The position numbers and the translations under genes are program-made. This document shows positions 30,224 through 47,615 of a stretch of DNA of 64,000 bases, piece after piece (position 1 is the first letter of the stretch; every line of letters starts with the position of its first letter). Below the pieces are notes generated by a model. It searched no databases, was not told the origin of the DNA, and saw only the letters and a program-made list of their open reading frames with translations. Source of the DNA: Botryosphaeria dothidea (lineage: Eukaryota; Ascomycota; Dothideomycetes; Botryosphaeriales; Botryosphaeriaceae); contig WWBZ02000010.1 of the NCBI GenBank assembly GCA_011503125.2, positions 985,758 through 1,049,757 of the forward strand. Reading direction: 5' to 3'.

Positions 30224-30494
30224 GGACTGAAGGGATAGGTCTAGTGGGTGAATGTAGGGCTGCCACAGCAGCCGCTACTGGTAAGAAGGAAAAACAAGAA
30301 CTAGTATAGGATAGCATGCCCAGAGAGAGGAGGGGTTTTTGCCAGGTGAAAAGGTTTTCCCCCTCGTGTAAAATAACTACAGATAGCCAGCCCCGCATGG
30401 ACCCGTAAGGGAGCTATATCGGGAAGAAATGAATTTATCTATCTATCTACCATTAATCTATGGTCTCATGCCTTAGGAAGAACCTAAATCCTCT

Positions 30495-30950
30495 CTTAAT
30501 TAACTCAATCAGATAACAAACCAACAATCTCAAACCGAAAAGGACTCATCTACTCAACAACTCCCAACACCTTCTCAGTCAGTTAAACCATCAGGAGATA
30601 CCATTGACTCCCAAGAACAAGAACAAGAGCAAACTGAGCAACGACTTGGTCCTCTACTACCTGCCCAATATAATACTCCACCACAACCAGGCGCTGCTCC
30701 CGGCAACAGAGCACCACGAGGAGCAGATATCTCAGCCACATTTGCTGAAGAAACTATCATTCCAGAGAACAGCTCACGGAGTTCTCGGAATCAGAATCCA
30801 AACTACAGCAATGATCCTTTTAGGAAACCTCGAAAACCACGAAAAGAAGCATATACTGCAACGCTTACTCAAGCTCAAGAACAACCGAAATCGACTTTCT
30901 ACAACGCGTTCTCAGCTGCAATCAACACTCCTGATGGAATTTGCGCTTGA
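30495..30950 (+). pseudogene. Copia pol fragment, integrase-RT linker
   Basis: The frame reads GNRAPRGADISATFAEETII, PENSSRSSRN, KPRKPRKEAYTATLTQAQE and KSTFYNAFSAAINTPDG. This matches the linker between integrase and reverse transcriptase in fungal Ty1/Copia polyproteins. The stretch before it is Gln/Ser-rich. It keeps its CpA dinucleotides, so unlike most elements here it has hardly been RIPed. Truncated at both ends. Confidence 0.6.
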
Positions 30951-32338
30951 TGGGTCGGAATGGATGAATGAATGACTTGATTGCTTAGTTGCCGAGGCGC
31001 TCGTGGTGTTGCTCCCCAAGACGTCTCAGAATGAATGACTAAGCTAATATGCTATCCAATAACAGATAACGGAGGTGATTGGGCTCATTTTCCATCAAAT
31101 ATCAAGGCTTGACAAACGGCAATTAAGGCTTGACGGAAAGAAAATCAAAGGGCGAGAACATCTCTTCCGCTCCCAGCCACCGCGTAGCCACATCGGATAG
31201 GTACGGGCTGCGGACGTGTTACTAGGCAGCAGGAAGCTGACGAGTGGTAAAACAGTACGTACGCCGGGAGAGCTAGCCACGCGCGCCTTAGTTATCGACA
31301 GCAAGCGTTTTGCTTTATAGGATTTTCGCTTCCTTAGCGGTGCGCCTGCATTAGGCTATGCAACATTGTATCAACGAGCAAAAGCGCCCGCATTATATGC
31401 GCCAATTAATTTTAGTCCAATAAATTATGCAGGCTAGGTTTAGTTATCGACCTATAGCTGCGTTTCTCGCTATAGTATGCTTATACTATAGTAGAAGGAC
31501 GCGACTTACGGTAAGCGGTAGCTAAGAGACGTTGCGTGCGCGCTTCTAGGCAGTCGCCGCAGGGTCCGCGAAATTTTTAACGGGTTATCCCGTCTAGGCG
31601 CGTGCGTAAGGTATAGCCAAGGCACGACAAGGGATAAGGATACGTTACGCCCTAATTACGACGAGTCTAGTAAGTTTCCGGCTTAGCGCGCGCTCGCGCC
31701 TACGCCCTAGGCCCTATGCCCTGCCGCCGCCGTTCTCGTACATCCTAAAACTAAGGTAGTATCTCTACTCTCGTTACCTTTATCGAGAGAAGAAAGTATA
31801 TCTAGAACTTCTCTATAATATAGCGTATTACCTTAGGTATCCTTAAAACGCACCGGAGGTGCTTCCGTTAATAAAGCGGTCGATTGGATTCTCGTAGCTA
31901 GCTAGTGGCTAGCAAGCGTGTTTTAGCGCTACTAACGAGCTAACGAGAAGAATTCCGAGGGCGTAATATAACTACCGGCCTTGCCGGCTAGTTAGCGTAG
32001 TATCGTATAATATTAAGGGTTTCTCGAAACGTAGTATCTATTTATAGCTTTATAGTTAATTTACTACCGGGGGGGCTACTTTAGTAAATACTATAGCTTG
32101 CGCTCTTAGAAATTTTCCTCTAACGGGAAGAGTAAACTCGTGCCGCTACGGCCTAATATTTCTTAAACCTTCTTTATAAGTACGAGTACGTTTAGTAAGC
32201 TAGGATTTACTAAGTAGGCGTACCTTCTAGTCTACGTAGTAGAGTTTATAAACTATAACGAGCTCGTTTCTATAGGTTAGTAGTCGTCCCGCTTATAATT
32301 AGCCTAGCGGTAATCTCGAGCACTATCTTATTAAAATA
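30951..32338. other. Transition from normal to RIPed DNA, no gene resolved
   Basis: To about 31330 the composition is normal; beyond that CpA vanishes. A short direct repeat TTAGTTATCGAC occurs near 31289 and 31440, and a hairpin with CTATAGTAT arms lies near 31473-31494. No coding frame recognised. Confidence 0.45.
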
Positions 32339-32494
32339 TATTAAATAACTAAGTTATTTATATAGGGAGTAAAGTTTAACGTAGATTAGTATAAGGAGGA
32401 GGAGAGTAGGTAACCCGGTCCCTCTTATATAGTAGCTATATAATAAATTCTCGGTATTAACCCTTAGTTTAATTAGACCCTATTTCTTCTAATA
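32339..32494 (-). repeat. Solo Copia LTR (156 bp), RIPed, with target duplication AAATA
   Basis: 156 bp, TATTAAATAAC to CTAATA, flanked by AAATA at 32334-32338 and 32495-32499. The same LTR occurs at 55148-55303 and 62796-62951; this copy carries the most CpA-to-TpA changes. Confidence 0.85.
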
Positions 32495-32869
32495 AAATAT
32501 ATAAGAAGAGTAGATAATACTACTTCTAGAATTGTTTGCTATCTACTAAGACTATATAGCACGCTTTATAAAAGACTCGTTAAAACGGATGTAAAGCGTA
32601 TAAAGGGAGGTAATTCTATAATATTTTATAAACGAAGGTTAAATAAGAAATATAAAACCGGATAATAGTAGTTAAATTAATGCGTGTACTAAGAAATAAA
32701 TAATAACCTATTAGAGACGTAGTACTAGTAATGTTTAACATTTATTAACCCTCTATATATATAATATATCTTCGAAAAAGAGCTAATTAAGAAGTTCTTG
32801 TTCCTATAGAAATAATACGTAACTCTTACCACTTAAGCTTAGAATCTATTTTAGAATATAGCTTCTACT

Positions 32870-33830
32870 CTCTACCCTAGTTATAGACCCCTCCCCTATC
32901 TCTAAAGCTTTTCTTATCCTAGTAAATACTAGTAAGTACCTTCTTAACGCCTACTTCTAAAATAGAGGCGGAGGGCTAACGGCCGTCTCGATCTAGAAAT
33001 CTTATATACTTATCTAGGATAAGATACGACTTAGCTATAAGAGTATTCGATTTAGGGATAAACGAGGGTTAGTGCTCGTGCCTCCGGTAAAAATATCGAT
33101 ACTCGTCCTCCGTAATTAGAAAGCGCCGTACGTCTCGAAGCCTCTTCTCCGACTCGTTCTCTCCTAGGACGTAGAGGACTTAGAAGTACTTCTACCGATA
33201 CGGCTCTAGATCTTCGACGTGCCGGTTTATATCTTCGCGGAAATTAAGCTTATATACTACCGTATTAAGCTTAAATTTAATACTATGCTCCTTATACTAC
33301 GCGGTAATCCGGTAGAGCTACGGTATCTAGTTGCTAGAGCCTCGGCTAATCTTAATATTAGTCGCCTCGTTAAATAAGTTATAGAATATAGCTAGAATAT
33401 CGATATACTACCTATACCGCGTAAGAAAGTTTCTCGTAACTAGGCTCCCGTTAGTAATAATCGAGATAGACTCTAGATATAGCTCTTCTTTATAGAACTA
33501 GAGTATTTACGAAAGGAACTTATAATATAGGAAAGGCTTACCGCCGGTAAAATTTACCTTCTATATACCGGTAGCCTTAAGTAGACGTAGACCCTATTTC
33601 GCGCGTTCTAGGTCTTCTATATATAACGTCGTCGCGGTATAGAAGTAGAATCTATAAGTCTTATTATATTACCGGGTAAAATAGTAATTAACTAATATAG
33701 GGCGCTTACGGCGATAAAGCTTAGATTTATAGAAGAGTTCTAATATAATAGAGACTAGTAAAAGTAATAAAAGAACTATAGTAATCTCGATTTAAGAAGA
33801 TTCTCTCTTTAAAAGTAAGGATAACTTCTA
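32870..33830 (-). pseudogene. RIP-killed viperin-like radical SAM gene (RSAD2 family)
   Basis: The minus-strand frame, broken only by TAG/TAA, follows the viperin order. A hydrophobic N-terminus (ITIVLLLLLLVSIILELF, about 33745-33800) is followed by RRKRPILVNYYFTR, the radical SAM site, GLRLLKATG, VNFTGGKPFL, SISIITNGSLVTRNFL, YIDILAIFYNLFNE, FKLNTVVYKLNFREDINRHV, FQVLYVLGENESEKRLRDV once a stop is skipped, RRFLITEDEYRYF, FIPKSNTLIAKSYLILDKYI and RFLDRDGR near the C-terminus. About 320 residues, normal for viperin. All three cysteines of CX3CX2C are Tyr codons (33666-33668, 33654-33656, 33645-33647). Viperins convert NTPs to chain-terminating ddhNTPs that inhibit viral polymerases. It faces away from the nucleotide kinase at 35127. 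Exact ends and introns unknown. Confidence 0.88.
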
Positions 33831-34109
33831 TAGTAGGGTCTATATATATAAGATAGTAAGCTATTAATCTATTATAATAGAGTTATACGAAGTTATATAT
33901 ATATACTACCTCTTCCGGATAAGGAGCCTATTTATTTAATACCGGAGAGTTATATAGGGTTACGTATTAGTTCCGCCTCTCCCGGTCTCCCGTATAGAAT
34001 AATAATTCTTCCCCCTTCTTTACTATTACTAGCTAACAACTATTTAATCTATTACTATTAACTACTACTACCTAAGGCTACGTACTTTCTTTACTTTTTA
34101 ATTAATATC
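33831..34109. other. RIPed spacer upstream of the viperin pseudogene
   Basis: Short CpA-poor spacer between the start of the viperin frame and an old LTR; it presumably held part of a divergent promoter. Confidence 0.3.
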
Positions 34110-34413
34110 TATTACGATCTAACCTTAAACTAATAAATAATAAGGCTTTAGGTAGTACTAGACTAATAGATAGCGAATCTTATTATTAAGATAACGGGAT
34201 AAGGTTACCGGGTAGGAGTATTTACTTACTAGGTAACGACGCTAGGCAACGACGCTAGGCAACGACGATAGGCAGGGACGCTAAGAGCGAACCCCCTCGG
34301 CTATCTTATAAACTTTCTTTTCTTTTCCTCTATCTTCTCTACTTCTTTTCTTTTTTAGCTTAGAAACTTAGTTAAATTTATAGATTAAACTTAATTCTCC
34401 TTAAGCCGTAATA
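34110..34413 (+). repeat. RIPed Gypsy-type LTR between viperin and kinase pseudogenes
   Basis: Starts TATTACGATCT and ends GCCGTAATA, the RIPed form of TG...CA tips, and carries the CTTTTTTAGCTTAG tract of the window's Gypsy LTRs. It includes three 13-bp tandem units of the AACGACGCTAGGC type (about 34223-34262). No matching target duplication was found, so the ends are tentative. Confidence 0.5.
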
Positions 34414-35126
34414 TACTACGTTTCTATCTTAGTATCCTATATCTCTAAGCGATTATTTCCTAATCTTTTTAATAAACGCTACCGTAGGTAGGCGTCGCCT
34501 ACTACTACTTATAGCAGCCTTAGCCTAATTAGGTTAGACTAGTATTTAGTATACTAAGGTACCTTCCCGCGCCTAATTAATTAAAATCCTTTTGCCTCTC
34601 CATTACTTTTATTTTATACGGCCCCTCTAAACTTATACGTGCTTCCTCGTATCTTACTATATATTAAGAATAGATAGTATTAATCTAGAGGGCTAGCAGC
34701 GTCTATTCTTTCTCGCGCTATTTAGTAATTACTATTCGGTCTAATATTAGTATAAGCTTCTACTTCTATAACGAGTTTAGTTATATAGCTTATAAACTAA
34801 TAGAGTATACTAAGAGTATAAAGGGTAGTAATTAGAGCTAATTACCGTAGCTTATAATGGAAGATAGAGGCTTGCTTATTCTATTTTTATATATATTATA
34901 TAGGTACTCCTTTCGTGTATATATTAAGCTTATAGGCACTCGTTTAATAGATTATATATCTACTAATTACTACCCTATATATAATTTATAAGCCTTTTTC
35001 GTAGTCTATATAGTTCGAATTACTATCTTATTCCGTATAGTTATAGCTAAAGAAGAACCTAGTATATCCTTTATCTATATTATAGGTATATATAATAGCT
35101 CTTATACTCTTAATAAAATTAATAGA
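34414..35126. other. RIPed region upstream of the nucleotide kinase remnant
   Basis: AT-rich with many TpA steps. Immediately before 35127 an ACTCTTAATAAAATTAATAG tract looks like the 3' end of an intron, so a first exon of the kinase may lie in the preceding 200 bp. Confidence 0.35.
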
Positions 35127-35775
35127 GAATAGGAGCTCTAGGCTCCGGTAAGGAAACACTATATAAGCGACTAGCCTACGATTATAACTACTACTATCTC
35201 TCGATTAGTAACGTACTAAGACGAGTTACGAATAGTAATCCTCCGGAAGTAGATTAGAACGTTATTAATCGTATACGAGATAGTAAGCTCTTACCGATTA
35301 AGGAGTTAAATTTAATTATAAGTAAGGTCTTTAAAGACCTAAAGTAAGAGGGCGTATAGAAAATTATACTAGACGGATTCCCGAGGAGACTAGATTAAGC
35401 TAAAGCCTTTAAAGCTTTAGTAAGTCTTTTATTATCTAACCTAAACCGCTAAATCTTTTTCCTCTTTACTTATACTATTATCTAGTTTAAAGAACCGGCT
35501 CTAGTACTATTCTTCGATTACCTAGAAGAGGTTATAAAATATAGATTTATTACTAGAAATATTACTAGTCGCGATAATAATAGTAGTCTATTCGATAGGA
35601 GATATACTAAGTTTATAGAACTAAATCCGGAGATTATTAAATTCTACGAGTCGAAGAAGATATTAGTTAAGGTAAGTACCTATAATCGACCGTCGTATAA
35701 CTTAAGTCTAATAGCGTATAGGTCGATACGAGGAGAGAGACTAAGATTTCTTACGAAAGTATACGGGATATTATA
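35127..35775 (+). pseudogene. RIP-killed nucleoside-monophosphate kinase (adenylate/UMP-CMP kinase type)
   Basis: The plus-strand frame begins with a damaged P-loop GALGSGKETLYKRLAYDY; the family reads GxPGSGKGT, and GGA to GAA explains the E. Then come LSISNVLRR (family LSxGDLLR), LPIKELNLIISKVF, KIILDGFPRRLD (the conserved NMP-kinase DGFPR block), FFDYLEEVIKYRFITRNITS and a lid/C-terminal part SLFDRRYTKFIELNPEIIKF. Only TAG/TAA interrupt it. These enzymes phosphorylate NMPs or dNMPs. It is the neighbour of a viperin remnant on the opposite strand, recalling animal RSAD2-CMPK2. Missense changes G to S and D to N in the LSxGD block fit RIP. Substrate cannot be told. Confidence 0.85.
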
Positions 35776-35977
35776 AAGAGTTAGTACGGTTCTAGGGGAC
35801 GGTAGTAAGGTTAATCTTCTAGACTAAATACTTAAGTCTTCTAGAGTTCGCGAGCGCGTAAGTAGATAAATTAAAACTCTTTTCTTAGAATATTTAATAT
35901 ACTAGCTCCTTAAGAAAAAGTCCGTCGTCTAGGTAAGGAGTATACTCCTACTTACGATATACGGTAACTCTTCCCGC

Positions 35978-36030
35978 TTCGTATAGCCGGCGGCGGCGAC
36001 TAGCCGGGTCGATTAGGGTGCCGCCGCCTA
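35978..36030. other. GC-rich hairpin in RIPed DNA
   Basis: GGCGGCGGC at 35989-35997 pairs with GCCGCCGCC at 36020-36028 across a 22-base loop. It stands out in AT-rich surroundings. No tail of T follows, so a terminator is not implied. Confidence 0.45.
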
Positions 36031-36209
36031 TAGCTAGCTTAAAGAATATATACCGTAATATTAGAGTTCTATAGAATTAAAAACCTTTAGTAAGGTTACT
36101 AGAGGGCACTAGAGAGTACTACGCGCTACTCTACGTAATCGTCTACTTTTAGTTTAGCGTGGTTCTAAAGACGTAGATATTAATCGCTTCGCCGCGTCTT
36201 ATACCTTTA

Positions 36210-36276
36210 GCCCTTTATCCTTTAATCCTTTAATTCTTTAACTCTTTAATTCTTTAACCCTTTAATTCTTTAACCT
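36210..36276. repeat. CTTTAA-type simple repeat
   Basis: About eight degenerate units of CTTTAAYYC/T in a row just upstream of the CYTH pseudogene. Confidence 0.6.
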
Positions 36277-36399
36277 ATACTCTCTATACCTATCTCTATT
36301 AACCTTAGATAATATAAAAAGATAGTAGTATAGCTACTATATTCTCGCGCGATTTAGTACTAACGCTAATAGTTATAGTAGAACGATATCGGCCTCCTC

Positions 36400-37030
36400 C
36401 GTCTTTCGTATAGCTAATCTTAAAGTCGAGCGAAAATTCGTTAACCTTACGGCTAAGAACTTAATACTAGACGGTAGAAGCCTATACTTTCGAACCTTAA
36501 CGGCGTTCCGCTCTTAGACTTTTACGGACGTATACTACGACGATAAGTTAAATATACTCTCGTTAAACGGTGTCTAGCTACGGGAGCGCGACGGTAATTA
36601 GTAGGCTAAAATTAGACTAGGTAGCGACTTTAATAACTCTAAGTTCGAGGAGGTAACTAACCTACTAGAGATCTTACGGCGTTTACGCGCGCTACTAGGC
36701 GCGAAGATTAGCGACGGGCCTAATAACTACTTTAGTCTAGATATCTTAGCTACTCTATCTACTATACGGCGTAGCTAGCTAGCGGACGGAGAGTTTAAGA
36801 TCGTACTTAATACGACTAACTTCGGTTATATAGTTAGAGAGATAGAGTTAGAACGTTCTATATAGTTTTATACTAAAGTAGGTTTAGATATTACTTAGTA
36901 GAAGGAAGTAAAGATAAAGAAGATAGATAAGATAATTACTAGATTTATAGACTACTACTCGTAGGCTTTCTATCCTAGTATTTCTAAGAGTAAACTTATA
37001 GCCTATTTCGAACGATTTAGAAAGGCGTAG
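36400..37030 (+). pseudogene. RIP-killed CYTH-domain protein (thiamine-triphosphatase-like)
   Basis: The plus-strand frame reads LKVERKF (36419-36439), TFTDVYYDDKLN, LSLNGV then a stop then LRERDG, AKIRLGSDFNNSKFEEV, LADGEFKIVLNTTNFGYIVR, EIELERSI, and ends YPSISKSKLIAYFERFRKA before TAG at 37028. This is the CYTH fold order: the ExExK strand, YxDxxxxxLxxxGxxLRxRxG, xAKxR, and the late ExE of EIELE. The first Glu of ExExK is Lys (GAA to AAA, RIP type), and W/Q positions are TAG. CYTH enzymes bind triphosphates with metal; fungal members resemble thiamine triphosphatase. It lies about 600 bp downstream of the kinase remnant in the same direction, next to viperin. Confidence 0.82.
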
Positions 37031-37506
37031 TAGGGCCTAGAATAACCTAGTATATTAATTTTCACTCTATAATAGCGTAGTAGTAGAACTAATAGACGCT
37101 ACTACTACTAGCCGCCTCTTACTATTACCTACTACTACCTATAGCGCCTAATATCTAAGGCTATATAAGCCTAAGGCATCTTACCGCACCTATCTAATCG
37201 ATATTTTTTTACTTCTTAATTAAGAACATAGTAGTCTAAGGAAAACTTTAAATTTATCGGAATTTAGTTAGTTATATACTATCTCTTCTTAAAGTATATA
37301 TCGTAAAATAGATATCTATTAAGGTTAGTAGTTCTAGTTAGTTTACTATAGATTATTCGGTGTTTATTTCTTCGCCTACGCTACTACCTATACTTCTATA
37401 TATAAATATTAAGTTCGTAGGAACTTTCTAAGTAATCTACGCCTTTACTAAGCACTATTACTACCTAAATAGTATTTTACTATATCTACCGATATCTAAC
37501 GGCACG
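37031..37506. other. RIPed spacer with ACT/AGT-rich stretch
   Basis: A TACTACTACTA-like run around 37090-37140 and no recognisable frame. Confidence 0.35.
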
Positions 37507-38190
37507 AAGAGAATTCCGAGACACGATAGCTATAGCCTAGGAAATTTCCTAAAAGCCTACTAATATTTATCTTATCGGTATATAATATATAGAGAAAATA
37601 ACTCTTCTTTAGGCGCTACGGGACTACTTTAAAGATCTAGACAACCGAAATTATTATAGTCGCTTCTTTCTACGGCTCTTATTAGTTTAGGAAGTCGTCC
37701 GGGATATTATGCGCGATAAAGGATTCTATTCGGCAGATATTAGGGAACTCGATAGGGGATACTAGCTTTAGAATCGCGTTCTTAAAGCCTAGTATAATGC
37801 CGAAAGAGATCTTAATAATCGATAGTATATTTCTAATAGGTCGGGGCTCGATCCGATAGTATACGTACGCGTTTATCTCGGGAACTAGGTAGCGGATAAA
37901 ATATTAGGCTTATATAAATACAAGTTTCTTATAGAAAGAATAAGAAACTCGATCGTTATCTTATGCGAGGTAGGTAGCGAGAAGTAGCTAACTAGTAACG
38001 AGGTAAGGATAACGTATTAAGATAAAAGTTAGTAGAAGGCTTTAAATAAAGAGTTTCGTAGGAATTTAACTAAGTATTCGATCGATTTTACGGTTCTTCG
38101 AGGAGATATAGTTAACTTAAGAGAGAGGGTGGCGTTTATAAGAAAGGTTCTTTCTTTAAGACTAAAATATATATAACTATCTAAAAAAAA
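37507..38190 (+). pseudogene. RIPed coding remnant, unidentified, downstream of CYTH
   Basis: A plus-strand frame runs about 225 codons with TAG/TAA only: ALRDYFKDLDNRNYYSRFFL, EVVRDIMRDKGFYSADIREL, ISNRSGLDPIVYVRVYLGN, KILGLYKYKFLIERIRNSIV, then charged helical sequence (LRGDIVNLRERVAFIRKVL). I cannot assign a family. It could be a fourth member of the viperin-kinase-CYTH group or an unrelated neighbour. Confidence 0.4.
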
Positions 38191-38825
38191 GCCGTTCTTT
38201 CCCCCCGCCCTAGCTATAGCATCTAAGTTTAGGCGCGATTTACTAAACGAGTAGACCTTAAGATAGCTAAATAGTTACTTATAATAGCTATTATATACTC
38301 CGCTATCGTTACGAGCTTCGGCGAAAAGTAGGTTTATAACGAGAAGAACGTTATTAAAGCTCTATAACTTCTATTAACTATACGTATCTCTAATTACGTA
38401 CTTTATCTTTAGTTTAATAAAACTATACTAGCCTCGATACTACCCCTTTACTCTCCGTCTTACTATAGTTAAGGTTAATAAAAGAGCTACCGTATTCTTT
38501 TAAACGCGTAGTATATAGTTAGCTTAGATAGTCTTAATATATAAGATAGCGGCGTCTTCTTTCTCGCACCGTTCGATAACTTCCTACCGACGAGCCTAGC
38601 TTTCGCAAGCTTCGCCCTATAATTATTAATATACTAGCTTAGCGTATATCTAATACTTATATACTTAATATTCTCTTCGAGAGTAGGGGCCGTATACTTC
38701 CGTAAGCTAACCCTACGGCCGATGCTTTAAAGACTAGATATAAGGTAAAACCTCTATCTATAATCGCTCGATTTACTCCTCTAGACGGCCCTACGTATTA
38801 CTCTACTTCTATAACTTATTATATT

Positions 38826-39430
38826 AGAGATAGATAAATAGATAGATAAGTTTATTTCTCCCGATTTAGCTCCCTTTCGGGTCTATATAGGGCGGCTATC
38901 TATAATTATTTTACACGAGGGGGAAAACCTATTCTACTAGGCAAAACCCCCTTCTCTCTTTCTAGGTGCGTTTTCTCTACTATCTTCGTTTTTCCTACTT
39001 ACCGGTAGAGGCTACTATAGTAGCCCTATATTCGCTAGCTATTATTATCCCCCTTAATCCTCTTTCTCGCGGGATTCTAGTTTCTTATAGTCCTAGCGGT
39101 CCTCCTAGCTCTTCTCCTTACTCTCTTCCTAGTAGTTCTTCTAGCGTATCTTCTTAGTAAGGCTAAACTAATTAAGTAATCTTAAGCGTAGAAACTAGGA
39201 TATTACTACTTTAGCTTCCTTCTCTATAGATAGAAGAGAGTAGTAATCTATAGTTTCTACCTTCTAAAGTATCTATACTCTATTCTATTAGAAGTAGGGG
39301 TAGAAGAGAAGAATATACTTTAGAGTTTACTTTTTCTAACTATATAGATAGGTAGGGCTAGAAGCTTACTATCTTATAGTTACGATAGCGTAAGAATTCT
39401 AAAGCCCTTATCGAATATTAGATTAGCGAT
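38826..39430 (-). mobile_element. 5'-truncated, heavily RIPed Tad-like LINE 3' end
   Basis: On the minus strand it aligns by eye with the last 600 bp of the LINE ending at 30466, including the shared block GGTTTTCCCCCTCGTG, a CGGGAG(A)AAAT stretch and the ATCT repeat tail at 38826-38850. Nearly every CpA of the younger copy is TpA here. The homology fades near 39430. Confidence 0.75.
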
Positions 39431-40050
39431 GCCCTTAACGGGGCTAGCGGAGCGTTTCGATTTAGTCGGCGATCTATTTAGGGAGGAGAATAACTATAAA
39501 GCTATAGCTAACTCTATAATATTCGAGGTAGAGGGCAAAATAGAGAAGTCGACTAAATACTCCACGCGGCCGCGAGGAGGCCTCCGGGGCGACGAACGGC
39601 GGGCTCTTAGAATTTTCTTAGTATTAGAAGTAAATAGGATCGTAAGATCGGGGAGGTATTAGAGTAGTATTTATAGGCTTAGGCTATAGTAGGCGACGGC
39701 GTTTCGCTAGGGAGGTAGGCGGTAGAGTTACTAGGGCTTCTTACGCGGCGGGGGAATTATTAGAGGGTCGCTATAAGGCGCTAGAAGCGCTAAGCCTATA
39801 GTAGCGTTAGAGTTATAATAGTCGGCGGGAAGCGTATTAGATTCTATATTATTACGGGAATATACTAGGACTTATAGGCTAGAGGAATCTACTATAGCTA
39901 CGTAGCGTCGTTAGGATTTAGATTCTAAGCTATAGCGTACGGATTACTTACTATAATTTTAAGTATAGCTAGTAGCTATATCTCGCCGAAATATATCGTA
40001 CTAACTATAGAAGTTAGAGCCTATATCCTCGTCCTTAAGAGTATAGCTAC
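39429..40050 (+). pseudogene. RIPed coding remnant, unidentified
   Basis: Begins MPLTGLAERFDLVGDLFREE and runs open for 77 codons, then continues with TAG interruptions only: GFLRGGGIIRGSL, GARSAKPIVALEL, SVLDSILLREYTRTYRLEES. No family recognised; it may be a transposon gag or a host gene. Confidence 0.3.
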
Positions 40051-42639
40051 TTTATATATAATCGTTATCTATACGCCTCCCCGGGCTTCTTATAGTAGAA
40101 TTAAAACGGAGTTCGTCGGGCGTGAATAAGTTATTATTATTATTATTATTATCCGCCGATAAGATAGTAGTATAGGTAGAGTCTATTGCTAGTAAGCGTT
40201 ATAATACGTTAGAGTTAGCCTTTTTAAAAATATGTGTTCCTCTAAAACGTTATAGTATTAAAATTAGTTATACCTTCGTTCTATTATATTAGTAAGTAAT
40301 ATAAACCTTATACTCCTAGAATAGATACTAAGAAAGAATAATTGCGACTAAGATACGGCGTCTAAAGACTATTTAACGTAGGATTAGAACTACGGTTACT
40401 TCCCTACACGGACGTATAATCGAATTCTTCTACGTTCGTCGGCAAATCTTTAACTAATAAGATATAGAACCTACTAAGACGGATTAGTATTCTTACTATA
40501 CTTATCGGTGCTAGAGGCTTACGCAATATGCTCGCCGGTCGCGTTCCGGGGATTCTCGATCCTATAATAGAAATTCTAATTATTCTACTTAATCTATCTA
40601 TAGCGGATGCTCTCTAGGTCTAAAAATTCTCCTAGAACCTTAGTTAAGCTAGTATTTATCTCTACTAGCTTCTTCTTTACTAACCTAAGTCTTCTAAGAG
40701 TAATTATAATATATTAGGTAGTCTAAAAATCTAAGCTTAACCTTAGCTTCTTTTCCTTCTCTATTATTTTACTATATTAGTCGCGTAGGCTCCGGTATAC
40801 TAAATATATATTAGCCTCGTTTATTTTCTTCTTCTAACTATAATTATTATATTAGCTCTCGCACTCTTAAGCGGTAGAGAAACCTATAACTAAGACTTAT
40901 TATAACTTATCTTAAGGAAGCGACTAAGGCTAGCGCCGGTAGCGATAGTAAGATATTTTCTTAACTAGCTAGCTATTAGTCTAAGGTCTTTAACTTTCTC
41001 TCTAGTCTCCCGCGAAGCGATCTCGTACGCGTAAGTACGCTTTAAACGACTACGGAGCTTGTCCTTAGGGATCTCTAGTAGACTCTCGTAGTACTCTATA
41101 AAATATAAGATAAAGAGTATTAAGAAACGGCGCGCGCACTTAGCCTCCTATACTTTTTACCCGTTATTTTTCTATATTTCGCTATACTTCTATAACGGCA
41201 TCTCTACTTCTAAAGCCGAACGGTCTACTCCTTAAGATACTACTTTATATATCGAGTACTCTAAACTTAAGGTTTACCGTTTATAGCTTATAAGTATAGA
41301 GTTAGACGAGAGCTTCTTAAGTTCTTCGCTCCCGATAGAATATTCTTTACCTTTATTAACTAACGCCTAATCTACCTCTATACGTCTTCTTTTCCGGCGT
41401 TTCTTTAGTACTATATTACTTTCCGAAGAAGCGGGTAACGAGTTATTAAGAGTAGGGCGCTTACTTTATACCTACGGCCCGGAATAGAAGCCTTCTTTTA
41501 TTACCTAAGGACTAAGGACGGCGGGTAGATAAGAAGTAGCGTTAGGCTAGGTCGAACTCGTAGATAAGTTTAAGGAACTAAATAACTACGGAGCCTCGGA
41601 GCTACCTAATAGGAGCGAATAGTCCGATAGCTAGGCTAGCGGCTACTAAGAAACTAAGGTAGTTCGTATCTAGACGGAGATATACCGCACTAGCTTCTCG
41701 AGCGTAAATTCTTAAAAGAATTATTAAAGCGATTCTTATAAGAGATTTTCTAATCGCTAGTATATATTAACTTAGCGTCCTAGCTTCCCCTTATTTATAT
41801 TACTTACTAGAGTCCCCGAGAGGAAGCGAGGCGTAATATCTCGTAGGCGGTAAATAGTATACTCTTAGTCGAGGTAATATAGAATATCCGCTATAAGAGG
41901 TGGAAGAGAACTATTAAGGGTAAAGTTATCTATATATAGTCTCCTCTAGCTCTATAAATAAGAATATATTCGTAATACTATACTACGAAAATATCTCCGC
42001 TCGTCCCCGCCTAAGTAATAGCGTGTTCTTAGTAGCGCGTAGTAACGGCGCAAGCGGGGTAGGTAGCGGCCTAACTATACGCCGACCCCACTACCGGAAC
42101 GGTTTCTATTCGATCTATATCGGTCTTCTAGCTACTCTATAAAGATAAGACGCAGCGGAACCGTTCTTAACTTTTTAATAGCTAGCTCTTTAGCTCGCTT
42201 CCCTCCTTTTATTAATATCTATAGAGTTTCGTAGTCTATACTAACTACCCCCCGTAGAGGCGACGCGGCTATTAGTCGGGCAAAGACGATAATAAAGACC
42301 CGTACCTAGTAAATACTATAGCAGCCACTTAAACGCGGATATTATATCCCTTCTCGCGTATAAGTCTATATATTTCGTACGTCTTAGCAGCCCCTAGCCT
42401 CGATAAAACGCTCTAGCGACCCTAGAGACCTAGCGTACGCCTTATTACGAATATACCTATTAAGCGGAAGCAGCCTTTATAATAAACTATCTAGAACTTC
42501 TCCTCCGTATCTCTAGTCTTTTAGCTTACGACTAACCGAGAATTCCTCGATTCTAATTATTTCTATTATCTTATATAATAAGTCTTTCCTCGACTTTCGC
42601 CTCCTCGGCTAGGTCTTATATTATTTAAGGCCTAAGAGT
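40051..42639. other. Heavily RIPed DNA, no resolved gene
   Basis: CpA-poor with a short ATT run near 40134-40150. I could not decode a domain on either strand. The end of it may belong to the kinase gene that follows. Confidence 0.5.
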
Positions 42640-43333
42640 ATATATCGCCAGCGGGTTCTCTAGGGATATCTACTAAATCGATTCCGAGTATATTATTAAG
42701 TAGCTAAAGTTCTTCTTAGGAGAAGACGAGTATAATTAGAATTTCCGCTAGATTATCGATTACGAGAGAAGCGTATTTAAGCGCCTAGGGGGGTATAAAG
42801 GAATTATTAAATTCTTTAGCATCTACGATATGGCGACTAGAGTATTAAAGCTAGAGTACGTAAACGAGGGCGAACTCGTAGACTATATTAGATTATATTC
42901 TAAGCTATCGGAATCCGACCGCGCCGTAATAATTCGAAGCGTGTCGGCAGCTCTATTATACGTATATTCTCGGAAAGTCTTACTCTAGGATATTAAGACG
43001 GAAAATTTACTAGTTTATAACGGTACGTTAAAGCTTAGCGATTTTAGGGAAGCGGTTCTTTATCCTCTAGACGCTAGTATAGAAGAAGTCTATACCTAAG
43101 ATACTTTCCGACTCGACCTACTAGGGATAGGCTATATTATATACTTAATTTTAGCGTAGAAGGTTTTCGATTATAGTTACTTTAAACGGTGTTCTTAGCT
43201 AACTAAGAGAGACCTCCCTACTACGGATTATTTAATATATAAGGAAGTTATTAAGAAGTATTAGTATAGGATCTATAAGAGTATAGAAGATCTTAAGCAC
43301 GGGATATGGAATATATTAAAACCTATAGAATAA
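42640..43333 (+). pseudogene. RIP-killed protein kinase gene
   Basis: The plus-strand frame carries protein-kinase subdomains in order: a nucleotide-loop region near DSEYIIKQLKFF after reading through a stop, ERSVFKRLGGYKGIIKFFSI, hinge VLKLEYVNEGELVDYI, AALLYVYSRKVLL then TAG then DIKTENLLV (42989 onward, catalytic loop), LKLSDFREA at 43034-43054 where SDFGEA is expected (GGG to AGG, RIP type), then RLDLLGIGYIIYLIL, the F-helix region. Stops are TAG/TAA. It resembles the small kinases common in fungal subtelomeres. Loss of the DFG glycine, plus the stops, kills it. N-terminal limit is approximate. Confidence 0.82.
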
Positions 43334-43812
43334 ATAATATGCTAATCGGTTAAGGTCTCTAGTATACTTCTATAATTGCAAGTTTTTATAGTTCTATAAG
43401 ATATATAGGCAGCTTTGCTATATTATTATAAATTTCTACGCACTAGTTAGTAATATTTACTATACTACCCTCCCGTAAAGACCTATCGTTTAGCCTTTAA
43501 AGTCTTCTAAAGAATTATAGTATTAGCTCTTCCTCTACTAAACTCTCGTAGAATATATTCCTACTATATTATCTTATTTCGCACCGCTTATAACGTAGTA
43601 ATCGATATATAGATCCTTTATTTAGCGCATATTATTTATAGCTCCTATTCGAACTATAAGGGATTTTTAGCGCTTTAATAAGCATAGCTCTCGAATAGGA
43701 TTTCTTATCGTAATAAGATAGGCTAAGAATAGTAGAAGCACGATATTACAGAGAAGGAAGTCGGTTTTTCTACGAATTTAATCAAGAAAACGTATGACTG
43801 GAGAAAAAAAAA
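43334..43812. other. Right edge of the large RIPed block
   Basis: RIP signature fades around 43750. An A-rich run (43804-43812) abuts the LTR that follows. Confidence 0.4.
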
Positions 43813-44115
43813 TGTCAAACTATAGGTGGGCCTTAGGCCCAAAACTGTGAGGTTAGAAGAAAGAATTGAATTCCTAACTGTATACTTCTGCCTATCCTCC
43901 CTAGTAAAGGAAAATAAGTGTCCTTAAGTATATAAATCTAAATTAATATAACCGAGGAAATAAGTGTATCCGAGGAAGTAATATCCGAGGGTATTAGGCA
44001 GGAATAGTGGCAAATTGATGCCCTCCTCTTCTCCGGTAGAATCTTCGAGAGATTATAGTAACTAATAAACTGAACGACAAATGCTGCCTGAGAAATAAGG
44101 GGATTCTAGTTAATA
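43813..44115 (+). repeat. LTR of family B, RIPed
   Basis: Starts TGTCAAACTATAGGTGGGCC and ends TAGTTAATA. It matches 57476-57780 along its length, and the nested solo LTR 55008-55464 in inverse orientation. No target duplication was found (AAAAA before, ATATT after), so it may be the edge of a truncated element. Confidence 0.75.
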
Positions 44116-44257
44116 ATATTCGTTGGATAAACGACGGTGGTCGGAGCGTAGTAAGGCAGAGAGGTGTTAGTAGCGTGCTAGTAGTGACGGGTAGATATGT
44201 TAAAAAGGTAGACAATAGAATCGCTGTCTACGGAAAGAGCAAGAAATGCTTATAACT

Positions 44258-44470
44258 ATTACTGTTAAATCTACCTATAACCGTTATAGCGTGTCTTACA
44301 ACGATTGCTGTAACACTCGCAACCGTTGTGATCTCGCTTACAACCATTGCCACGCGACCCGCAACTATTACCGTGTTACCTACAACTATTGCGGCAAGGC
44401 TCGCAATTATTGCTATATAACCGGCAATTATTGCTGTCGACAGTCGCGTTATCGCGAAATAAGAATTCTG
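44258..44470. repeat. 21-bp minisatellite, degenerate
   Basis: About ten units of 21 bp of the type CAACYATTGCxxxxxxxCTC/G, alternating in detail. On the plus strand this encodes a heptad YNxCxxx/RNxCxxx (for example YNDCCNT, RNRCDLA, YNHCHAT); on the minus strand it encodes a hydrophobic AIVVxxx/VIVAxxx heptad. The repeat is what is certain; coding is not. Confidence 0.7.
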
Positions 44471-44665
44471 TGTATTTCGCACCGTTTCTGCGTTCGTAAC
44501 TGGTGAGACGGTTGTTATAGCAGAACGCTCCGCAGTGTTACGAGCTGAATCAGGACTTTTCTAATAGCTAGCATCACTTGCAAGCATAAGAGAATATATT
44601 AATAGTTGGCCGTACTTAGTAGTGTTTAAGAACCTCCCCTTAACACTAGATAAAGAATAAGGAAA

Positions 44666-45119
44666 TGTTAGACTATTTTGCCCCACTATATCAGGCATCA
44701 CATCCTTTCGGGCATTAAGATCAGTAGCTACTCTTTGCCACCTCCTCACTACTCCTCATATTCACAAGCTTCGGATATCAACATCGGCTTCTATTCTCCT
44801 CGGTTATTCAAACACTCTTTGATGGAATGCATGGACCGTAGTGGAGGCCATGGGCCTGGAATGACTCTTCCTTTGTTCTCTTTGTTCACTCATATCTCCA
44901 AGACTATTGGCAGATTAGCTCTAATAGCTCGCTTAACGAGCAGAGCTTGGCAGTTGGGTATATCAACCCCTGCCAACTCTCTCTTCAATCGATCATCCTT
45001 TCGCACCACATCCATCACTCTTTTATGTATATAAGCAAGCCTACCGACCTCCCTCTCAGGAGACAGGCAGAATCTACTCTCTTTTCTGACCTCACAACTC
45101 TTCACTCTCAAATCCAACA
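44666..45119 (-). repeat. LTR of family D (454 bp)
   Basis: On the minus strand it begins TGTTGGATTTGAGAGTG and ends AGTCTAACA. The copy at 59198-59436 shares both ends but lacks about 215 internal bases. No target duplication seen. Confidence 0.65.
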
Positions 45120-45258: not shown

Positions 45259-47615
45259 TCAGTGCAGTAAACGCCAATGAGCGATGATGCTAGAATGCCC
45301 ATTTAGCTCTTGACCATCTACTGGGCAGATAACAATACTCCTCTCCGAGGCGTGCCGAAGGTGGTGACGACGTAGATGCTTCTCCAAGACCCTTCGATTA
45401 TAGAATTCTTTCAGACGCTTCTGCATCGAAAGTGCTTTATCCCCGAAGCAGATGAAGCACTGCAGCTGTCGGGGCCACGAGTGAGAATCCTTCTCCGCAC
45501 TCGCCTGTACTCCTGAGTGCACCATCAATCGGTTAGTTCGACTGGGTTGTCTCTGTGCCTTCTCCAATGTACGACTCAAGACCTCTGAGCAGCTTGAGTG
45601 GTTTTCTCGAGCTCCGCTTAAGGCGGCCAGTGCAGCGACTGCGCGTTTTATCTGATGTAACTCTTTCTCAGAAGTCGGTTCAGGAAGCGTAAAAAGTGTC
45701 TGAAATACTCGGGCTCTTTGTGGAGGGAGATTCGCATCTGAAGCTCGCGCAGGGATATCGATCGGCTGGCCATGAAGCTGGTCCTGAATATCCGCAATGG
45801 CCTGGTGCCTATCAAAGCCCTTCTTGATCTTTTCGAGCAGCGCCTGCTTCTGCCGTCTTTTTTCTTTCTGGTAGGCGAGTGTAGCGTTGCGCCTAGCACT
45901 TTGAAGGTTCAAAAGCGCTCTCTGAGAGACTCTCATACGCTTCACCTTTGCCAACCCTTCGATTATCTGATCCCTTTTACTGTACAGCTCAGCAACTCTT
46001 GGGTGCATCTCAATGCTCACTGACTGCTCAGCGGTAAGCTTCCGTGGCCGTCGTGGGTCTATCGAACGACGCATGCCGCCCGCATCACAGCCGACTGAGG
46101 TGCCGTCCCTCAATAGGCGGCTTGCGTGTCTACGTTAATATACCGTGGGAGGTAATGTTTCTGGAACACCTCTGACTTGGAATGCTGCATGATCATGTTT
46201 CGTAAGGAGTCGGTAATGTCGTCTGATACCAAGCCTCGTCAACATTATTTGCTTTAACTGGTAAGAAAGCGTGGCTGTGTTTTTTTTCCTTTGTAAGAGA
46301 ATGAAGGAAGCACGTACTGGAGCTGTCGAACGCTTTTCCAGCGGCGTATCGGAGAACATACAGGTGACAGATTTTGTCCATGCCGGTCACCTCCCCGAGC
46401 TTCCTGAACCAAGGGCGGACCGTACTGTGGGGCAGAGGCTCTCTCGATATCCTCGTCCCATAAACTGTCTGATGAGACTTACGGAAGACATGAAGGTCGA
46501 GAACATCTTCTTTCCATGGAACACGAGCCTCCATCAACTCGTCGACTACCCTTAATTTTGATAAGGCTTCAGGCCCAACGAGATCCTGAGATGCAAACGC
46601 TTCATCGCTGAATGCCAGAGCTAAGAAGTACGCGTGTGGAGAGAGCACCAGACACGGGTCGTGCCTAATTCGCGGTATAGCGAAGGTATTATTAATTAAT
46701 ATGTGAGCCGCAAGCTTAGAAAGTAGTTACTAGAACATCTCCGTACCTGTCTTTTGCACCGAGGTACCCTTTGGTGTACTCGTAACTTAGATCAATTAGG
46801 ACAACAGGCTGCTCTCCGCTTATTGGGTCCCGGAGAAGAGTGACCCGAACGTCGCGATAGCGAAGGGCCAGCAATGCTCCTGGTCTACTACCTGAAATTC
46901 CAGCTAGCAGCATGATAAGTGAAAGCTGCGTGCGGTGCCTTTCGTGGTCGAAGGTCATCTCCGTTGAAGCCCACAGCGTCCTCAGGACCTCTAACAGATC
47001 TTCGGCATGCATTGGCACCTTCTCTCTTTTCTTCGTGTTCAGACCAAAGTCTTTGACTAATCTCTGCAGGACCTTGAGCCAGCCTCGTTAGTATTGTATG
47101 GCCAGTATTGAGCAGCATCGTAAAGTCATCATTTGGAGACATCGAACGAACTTACTCCGTGCATTTGCCGAATCACGAGCTTGTCGAGCTTTAATCCGAC
47201 CTTGCGTTCCCGGAGCAGGCAGAAGACTTTCCAGTACGTCTCCAGCGTTCCCTTGGCGCGAAGTGTCGTCTTACGGTAGTTGAGCACCCAGACAAAGAAG
47301 TTGTGAAGTAGTCTGGTGTTGACTTTCTCGATAGCGGCTTCATGATCGAGTGTTCGAATTGCACAGTACCTGGTTACTGAGGTTAGATGATGCTATGCAA
47401 ATTTGCAGCTACACTTACTGCACCCACAACTTCTCCACCTGCTTGAGCAATATCTCACTGCTGTTACTGTATACCTTCTGGGTAAGTGTCTTCTCGTCAA
47501 AGGAGGCCTCAATTTCGTTCAAGTCTTCTGCGCTTAAGCTACCGGTAGTTTGAGCTCTCGTCAGGTGAACTCCATGTCCTGATAAAGCCGCAGGCGCCGC
47601 GCGTCGCTGTGGCAT
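45259..47615 (-). pseudogene. DUF3435 tyrosine recombinase, Starship-captain superfamily, slightly damaged
   Basis: Minus-strand gene with several short introns. It starts MPQRRAAPAALSGHGVHL (47615); a 49-bp intron (47370-47418, GTAAGT to CCAG) leads to NTRLLHNFFVWVLNYRKTTL. Then come SGSRPGALLALRYRDV (box I Arg), YTKGYLGAKDRYGD, LHVFRKSHQTVYGTRISREP, the box II region CHLYVLRYAAGKAFD, IMQHSKSEVFQKHYLPRYI with a candidate nucleophile Tyr, and SIDPRRPRKLTAEQ. The C-terminal part (45259-46113) ends with Cys/His motifs CFICFGD, HLRRHHLRH and CPVDGQ, as in DUF3435 proteins. Damage: a TGA (AAY-stop-GT) near 46115-46125, and a frameshift just after it. Such recombinases mobilise giant Starship transposons. 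A near-complete gene with few lesions and no RIP suggests recent loss. Confidence 0.8.

Follow-up and report, generated by a model that had tools for sequence, protein, structure and literature searches.

The genome of the ascomycete fungus Botryosphaeria dothidea contains two copies of a group of four genes, one broken and the other intact. The broken copy lies in a stretch of 64,000 nucleotides (contig WWBZ02000010.1, positions 985,758 to 1,049,757 of the forward strand; hereafter the window, with positions counted from its first letter), and the intact copy is on the contig C6 of the same assembly. The genes encode viperin, a nucleoside monophosphate (NMP) kinase, a CYTH-domain protein and a P-loop protein of the AAA_28 family. 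The existence of the intact copy, along with linked relatives of these genes in other fungi, suggests that the four cooperate in making and handling an antiviral nucleotide. With moderate confidence, we propose that they form a viperin module, conserved in fungi, for the supply, synthesis and probable clearance of 3'-deoxy-3',4'-didehydro (ddh) nucleotides. The copy in the window was inactivated by repeat-induced point mutation (RIP), so that its genes are a dead record with no function of their own. The features of the window are as follows, the gene coordinates being mapped from the intact C6 copy:

32826..33779, minus strand: broken gene for viperin (radical SAM nucleotide dehydratase); Radical_SAM match; paralogue of the intact viperin P0004
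35043..35808, plus strand: broken gene for an NMP kinase (ADK family, UMP/CMP-kinase-like), introns included; ADK match; intact paralogue C6:391855-392505
36386..37030, plus strand: broken CYTH gene, thiamine-triphosphatase-like; CYTH match; intact paralogue C6:390585-391235
37532..38176, plus strand: broken AAA_28 gene (NadR/Ttd14-type P-loop), the fourth partner; AAA_28 match; intact paralogue C6:389445-390107
30466..45094, no strand assigned: RIP-mutated inverted segmental duplicate of C6:382726-397098; purine/pyrimidine seed matching and alignment

The broken genes were identified by a Pfam run on the reading frames of the window with stop codons read as X. The viperin remnant on the minus strand matches Radical_SAM with an E value of 1.1e-5 and a score of 26.2 bits, below the cut-off of 29.5, and a frame on the same strand retains the viperin pattern from the Fe-S region through the C-terminal tryptophan; it is 76% identical in amino acid sequence to the intact paralogue P0004 on C6, contains 16 premature stops and has lost the Fe-S cysteines, and all 127 of its 127 differences are of the RIP type. 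The kinase remnant, head-to-head with viperin on the plus strand, produces an ADK match (E 7.3e-10), is 82% identical to its paralogue and has stops in its reading, with 92 of 92 differences over 766 bases being RIP-type. The CYTH remnant (plus strand; E 0.0041, below the Pfam cut-off; 76% identity; 9 stops) and the AAA_28 remnant (plus strand; E 3.8e-6; 73% identity; 14 stops and a damaged P-loop) show 86 of 87 and 84 of 85 RIP-type differences, respectively, for a sum of 389 of 391 across the four genes. A preliminary description of this DNA had claimed dead copies of a viperin (minus strand), an NMP kinase and a CYTH protein (both plus strand) within 4.2 kb, which is borne out by the Pfam matches, the viperin pattern and the intact paralogues; the frame at 37507-38190 that it mentioned as a possible fourth partner is the AAA_28 gene, intact beside the others on C6.

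Besides the window, a search of the genome (51.7 Mb in 78 contigs) yielded a single close copy per gene, and all four are grouped at C6:389436-394802 with the order and relative orientation that they have in the window; because the intact paralogues occur in the same order, chance grouping of the remnants is excluded. The frames of viperin (317 amino acids), CYTH and AAA_28 are open in the intact cluster, and the kinase gene contains three introns with GT/AG ends and was spliced by hand to 200 amino acids. The intact viperin possesses the CxxxCxxC Fe-S motif, the viperin core and the C-terminal tryptophan, and passes the equivalog model NF038283 (246 bits, cut-off 180); the 450-bit cut-off of TIGR04278, a model of the 'exception' type, is reached neither by this protein (viperin A, 367 bits) nor by a second intact viperin of this genome (viperin B, 394 bits). 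In the PDB, it matches solved viperins and viperin-like enzymes best, with the top scores obtained for eukaryotic viperin structures. Among the matches listed in a protein database search, CxxxCxxC is present in 118 of the 119 viperin relatives and the terminal tryptophan in 114 of the 119, the nearest named relative being that of Neofusicoccum ribis (85%). The kinase belongs to the Pfam family ADK (PF00406), and its best PDB match is yeast uridylate kinase; the best NCBIfam model is UMP-CMP kinase TIGR01359, with 111.9 bits against a cut-off of 207.6, and because this cut-off is not reached, we call the protein UMP/CMP-kinase-like and not a member of that family. A thymidylate-kinase-type homologue of CMPK2 adjacent to viperin was considered and ruled out: matches to the thymidylate kinase family came only from C47, where no viperin was found.

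All four broken genes are carried by a single inverted duplicate of about 14.4 kb, detected by matching seeds in a purine/pyrimidine alphabet between the window and the genome. The preliminary description had allowed that the remnants might derive from separate duplications of unlinked genes; seed matching and alignment rule this out in favor of one block duplication. The alignment with C6 comprises 14355 compared columns and 1644 substitutions, of which 1594 are C>T or G>A changes towards the window. In the window copy, CpA is altered at 1398 of 1751 sites (79.8%), compared with at most 8.5% for CpC (134/1585), CpG (45/1550) and CpT (17/2042); such a C-to-T bias focused on CpA in duplicated DNA is the signature of RIP. 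Classical RIP usually mutates both copies of a repeat. Here the mutations are confined to the window copy, which is odd given that RIP usually strikes both; the C6 copy has a GC content of 0.483 and a TpA/ApT ratio of 0.95. The pair thus combines very few non-RIP differences with RIP in one copy alone, and the unmutated C6 copy may have entered by crossing or may have escaped RIP. Just beyond the right end of the mutated duplicate, the window encodes a DUF3435 protein in two pieces (45262-46134 and 46196-46726, minus strand); we take DUF3435 to be the family of the Starship captain recombinases.

The pairing of viperin with the kinase extends beyond the cluster. Searches with both intact viperins revealed four viperin loci in this genome: the intact cluster (A), a second intact gene at C6:719564 (B), a gene at C12:1804203 (C) and the window. 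At each of the four, an ADK-family kinase is head-to-head with viperin, and these account for four of the seven ADK loci found in the genome, the remaining three being located on C12 (two) and C1 (one). The two genes are divergent, with start-to-start distances of 1264 bp at locus A, 579 bp at B and 443 bp at C. The viperin of locus C (L027:6182-7258 on C12) has one in-frame stop, has lost the third Fe-S cysteine and adjoins an open NMP kinase frame; this is another decaying pair. Loci B and C are similar at the DNA level over the gene pair only (blastn, 26 kb around each). The CYTH and AAA_28 families each produced one match in the genome at E≤0.001, both in the intact cluster (for AAA_28, 29 of the 51 candidates were scored). 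The searches for these families, run on six-frame translations that took no account of introns, missed the broken CYTH and AAA_28 genes of the window, so that the counts are lower bounds. Two further observations concern this genome. A gene of the nucleoside phosphorylase family PNP_UDP_1 (L024:7490-8620, minus strand) flanks the second intact viperin on its far side, and a pair of Radical_SAM matches identical in score and in frame length, at C36:3552758 and C78:2667088, possibly reflects a duplicated chromosome segment or an assembly duplicate.

Another line of evidence comes from the linkage of these genes in other fungi. Database searches produced 2133 matches for viperin, 282 for CYTH and 319 for AAA_28, with 120 of each listed, and the following counts hold among the matches listed; 119 viperin, 119 CYTH and 118 AAA_28 proteins were compared, after three rows from B. 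dothidea itself (all on a contig of 6543 bases) and one that gave no contig had been left out. As a proxy for linkage, we used equal size in bases of the longest contig together with a shared source, and as a control, the same sizes shifted by 1-100 bases. By this measure, 22 viperin/CYTH pairs coincide (control mean 0.1, maximum 3), along with 3 viperin/AAA_28 pairs (mean 0.06, maximum 2) and 4 CYTH/AAA_28 pairs (mean 0.13, maximum 2); a further coincidence, of CYTH and AAA_28 rows both of 919 bases, was excluded, the two having no shared source and 919 bases being too short for both genes. Eight of the 22 viperin/CYTH contigs are 3-20 kb long, so that the two genes are close to each other on these. 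A Periconia contig of 8288 bases bears viperin, CYTH and AAA_28 together, and in one record of Aspergillus melleus, the locus tags are 000382 for CYTH and 000384 for viperin. Among the named genera, Glonium, Periconia and Aspergillus have short shared contigs, and Trichoderma is represented on long contigs alone. Among the 18 named assemblies that show both viperin and CYTH (names read by eye), 16 coincide in contig size. The distances among viperins and among CYTH proteins are correlated over the 23 linked pairs, our own included (r 0.81; none of 2000 permutations was as high, the best reaching 0.47), as expected of co-inheritance, whether vertical or joint. One database protein, P0029 from Alternaria panax, consists of a viperin joined to a part of AAA_28; because this part lacks the P-loop, we regard P0029 as, probably, two neighboring genes merged in the gene model and do not count it as a fusion.

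The cluster is accordingly conserved in part outside B. dothidea, and the concern that fungal viperins might never neighbor these families falls away, since CYTH and AAA_28 are linked to viperin in other fungi and members of all three families adjoin viperin in this genome. The viperin, NMP kinase and CYTH trio surmised in the preliminary description stands as an intact cluster on C6, as a viperin-CYTH association in other fungi and as a viperin-kinase pair at four of four loci here. The comparison of fungal co-occurrence with chance that it called for puts CYTH above the control and AAA_28, too, less often; viperin-kinase pairing was counted within the loci of this genome only, and CYTH and AAA_28 linkage across the other fungi. 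Several observations weigh against a conserved four-gene module. Fourteen of the 22 viperin/CYTH contigs are longer than 20 kb, which denotes presence on the same contig, not adjacency; 2 of the 18 named assemblies, A. alliaceus and another A. melleus, have the two proteins on contigs of differing size; and for 97 of the 119 viperin rows, the matches listed include no CYTH partner, which reflects either absence or the fact that these comprise 120 of the 282 CYTH matches. Within the linked set, viperin and CYTH agree on the closest relative in just 9 of the 23 cases. Furthermore, neither CYTH nor AAA_28 turned up at loci B and C in the six-frame, intron-less family searches, so that these two partners are not obligatory beside viperin.

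Arguably, the four genes could be neighbors without a common function, carried, for example, by mobile or fast-evolving regions, and the setting of the window block, among retroelements and adjoining a DUF3435 recombinase-type protein, would fit such a history. However, linkage in many fungi far above the shifted control, the correlated distances and the pairing with the kinase at all four viperin loci make this explanation highly improbable in our assessment.

In a search of the PDB, a profile built from 34 CYTH sequences (our own and 33 of the 120 listed matches) matched only thiamine triphosphatases (5 matches), and the AlphaFold model of the intact protein (pLDDT 92.4) has mouse and human thiamine triphosphatase as its best fold matches (E 2.1e-13). 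The ExExK motif, two arginines, and the tyrosine and lysine matching the catalytic dyad are conserved in 34 of 34 aligned sequences, and the tryptophan corresponding to Trp-53 in 32 of 34, with tyrosine in the remaining two (equivalence from the PDB profile alignment); ExExK is also present in 115 of the 120 CYTH relatives among the matches listed. The roles of these residues, including the thiamine-stacking tryptophan of the mammalian enzyme, are described in PMC8615392. The CYTH protein thus combines ExExK, the catalytic tyrosine and lysine, the stacking tryptophan and the tunnel fold of the thiamine triphosphatases. Judging from the sequence, retention of the thiamine-stacking residue would favor thiamine triphosphate over a ddh-nucleoside triphosphate (ddhNTP) as the substrate, which counts against the module as proposed and makes a thiamine-triphosphate role a serious rival. 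Under this rival, CYTH is a true thiamine triphosphatase, a repair enzyme that clears thiamine triphosphate formed as a by-product of the ADK-type kinase and leaves ddhNTP untouched. The sequence and fold matches speak for it, as do the conserved dyad and tryptophan, and PMC8615392 states that thiamine triphosphate is a product of adenylate kinase 1 and that a repair role has been proposed for thiamine triphosphatase. On the other side, an aromatic residue could equally stack a nucleobase, so that a site with this tryptophan could hold a pyrimidine base as well. The genome has ADK-family loci in other places too, so that a repair enzyme would have no need to be clustered with viperin; in addition, thiamine triphosphate mostly stays low even without thiamine triphosphatase activity, according to PMC8615392. 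We regard exclusive repair as possible but rather doubtful.

The AAA_28 protein is predicted to be nucleoside or nucleotide kinase-like. The intact protein scores 85.4 bits with PF13521 (cut-off 27), the P-loop is present in 119 of the 119 relatives among the matches listed, and the AlphaFold model (pLDDT 91.7) resembles in fold shikimate kinases, thymidylate kinases, AbmG with cytidine, and NadR, the last ranking among the best matches with TM scores of 0.62-0.67 over the model. Because identity is only 9-20% over the 50 matches shown, we assign this protein no further than kinase-like. The resemblance to AbmG, which was solved with cytidine and 4'-thiocytidine, would suit a cluster for a nucleoside natural product, in which viperin would make ddhNTP, CYTH and other phosphatases would dephosphorylate it, the ddh-nucleoside would be released against competitors, and the kinases would feed the precursor or shield the producer. 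However, no transporter or tailoring enzyme was seen by eye among the open reading frames around the intact cluster, a weak objection given that these frames were inspected without a Pfam scan, and the viperin-kinase pair exists without the other two genes at loci B and C. Such a natural-product cluster appears unlikely.

We return to the antiviral module, in which viperin and a dedicated NMP kinase are placed head-to-head, with the thiamine-triphosphatase-like CYTH protein and the AAA_28 P-loop kinase-like protein next in line. For this module, we infer the substrates, the direction of each step and the antiviral use, the last by analogy with the viperin family. Viperins convert nucleoside triphosphates (NTP) to chain-terminating ddhNTP (PMC10732462), and a fungal viperin has been reported to yield the ddh analogues of CTP and UTP (PMC9642334). 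The NMP kinase, possibly with AAA_28 acting on a nucleoside, would raise pyrimidine nucleotides up the phosphorylation ladder, so that the fungal ADK-family enzyme would fill the role of CMPK2 using another enzyme family. Viperin would then dehydrate an NTP to a chain-terminating ddhNTP directed against RNA mycoviruses or other elements, and the CYTH triphosphatase would limit ddhNTP or a triphosphate by-product, sparing the host polymerases. The triphosphate removed could be either ddhNTP, for self-protection, or thiamine triphosphate from the ADK-type kinase, for repair. A more specific version, which we put forward only tentatively, is a dedicated ddh-nucleotide cycle, in which AAA_28 and the ADK kinase load the substrate, viperin makes the terminator, and CYTH, derived from a thiamine triphosphatase, would be the first known ddhNTP-destroying enzyme, the off-switch of the system.

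The cluster names candidate partners of fungal viperin, namely, a kinase paralleling animal CMPK2, a triphosphatase and a further protein resembling a kinase. With it, the possible use of ddh-nucleotides by fungi against mycoviruses becomes testable, as does the way in which a cell producing a general terminator of RNA chains protects its own polymerases, and it may help to explain why fungi have thiamine-triphosphatase-like proteins at all.

Comparison with known systems points to both precedents and apparent novelties. The closest animal parallel is the RSAD2-CMPK2 pair, in which, as at four of the four fungal loci found, viperin adjoins a divergent NMP kinase. The likening of the fungal kinase to CMPK2 in the preliminary description thus holds for position and orientation, but not for the enzyme family: the fungal kinase belongs to the ADK/UMP-CMP-kinase family, whereas animal CMPK2 is, we presume, a member of the thymidylate-kinase family. 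We know of no counterpart of CYTH or AAA_28 in the animal pair. CMPK2 is described as lying beside and inverted to RSAD2, and as acting upstream of viperin in pig cells (PMC10058120), and the pair is described as divergently transcribed (PMC12889620). In the literature searched, outside of which subscription papers mostly fell, no paper was found that joins viperin and thiamine triphosphatase, and none of those listed describes such a fungal cluster in its title or opening abstract lines; the main text of a paper on Epstein-Barr virus (PMC10012557) contains no CYTH domain, and viperin figures there as an interferon-induced gene.

The prokaryotic viperins (pVip) share with the fungal protein homology at E 1.3e-66 and a kinase partner, and PADLOC models the kinase-associated and the kinase-fused forms separately; the difference is that the fungal viperin scores highest with the eukaryotic structures. 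Among prokaryotic loci, there were 36 pattern matches, of which 3 are true relatives, and no CYTH or NMP kinase was seen by eye among the neighbors viewed; in viral contigs, 22 viperin pattern matches were obtained, none of which was confirmed as a relative. Near the viperin relative of Acinetobacter gandensis, there is, by eye, an orotate phosphoribosyltransferase-like gene of pyrimidine synthesis (L030:7629-8321, minus strand).

Mammalian THTPA, of the CYTH/TTM superfamily, resembles the CYTH protein described here in its fold, ExExK, catalytic dyad and stacking tryptophan, and differs in that the latter is fungal and viperin-linked. The roles reported for this superfamily are RNA triphosphatase for fungal members and thiamine triphosphatase for metazoan ones, and Arabidopsis TTM1 and TTM2, with a uridine kinase domain beside CYTH, provide a precedent for the combination of a kinase with CYTH (PMC8615392). 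NadR ribosylnicotinamide kinase, AbmG and the thymidylate kinases share with the fungal AAA_28 protein the AAA_28 Pfam family and the P-loop kinase fold, at an identity of 9-20% over the matches shown. Taken together, these comparisons indicate that the viperin-kinase link has animal and bacterial precedents and that the CYTH and AAA_28 partners appear to be new.

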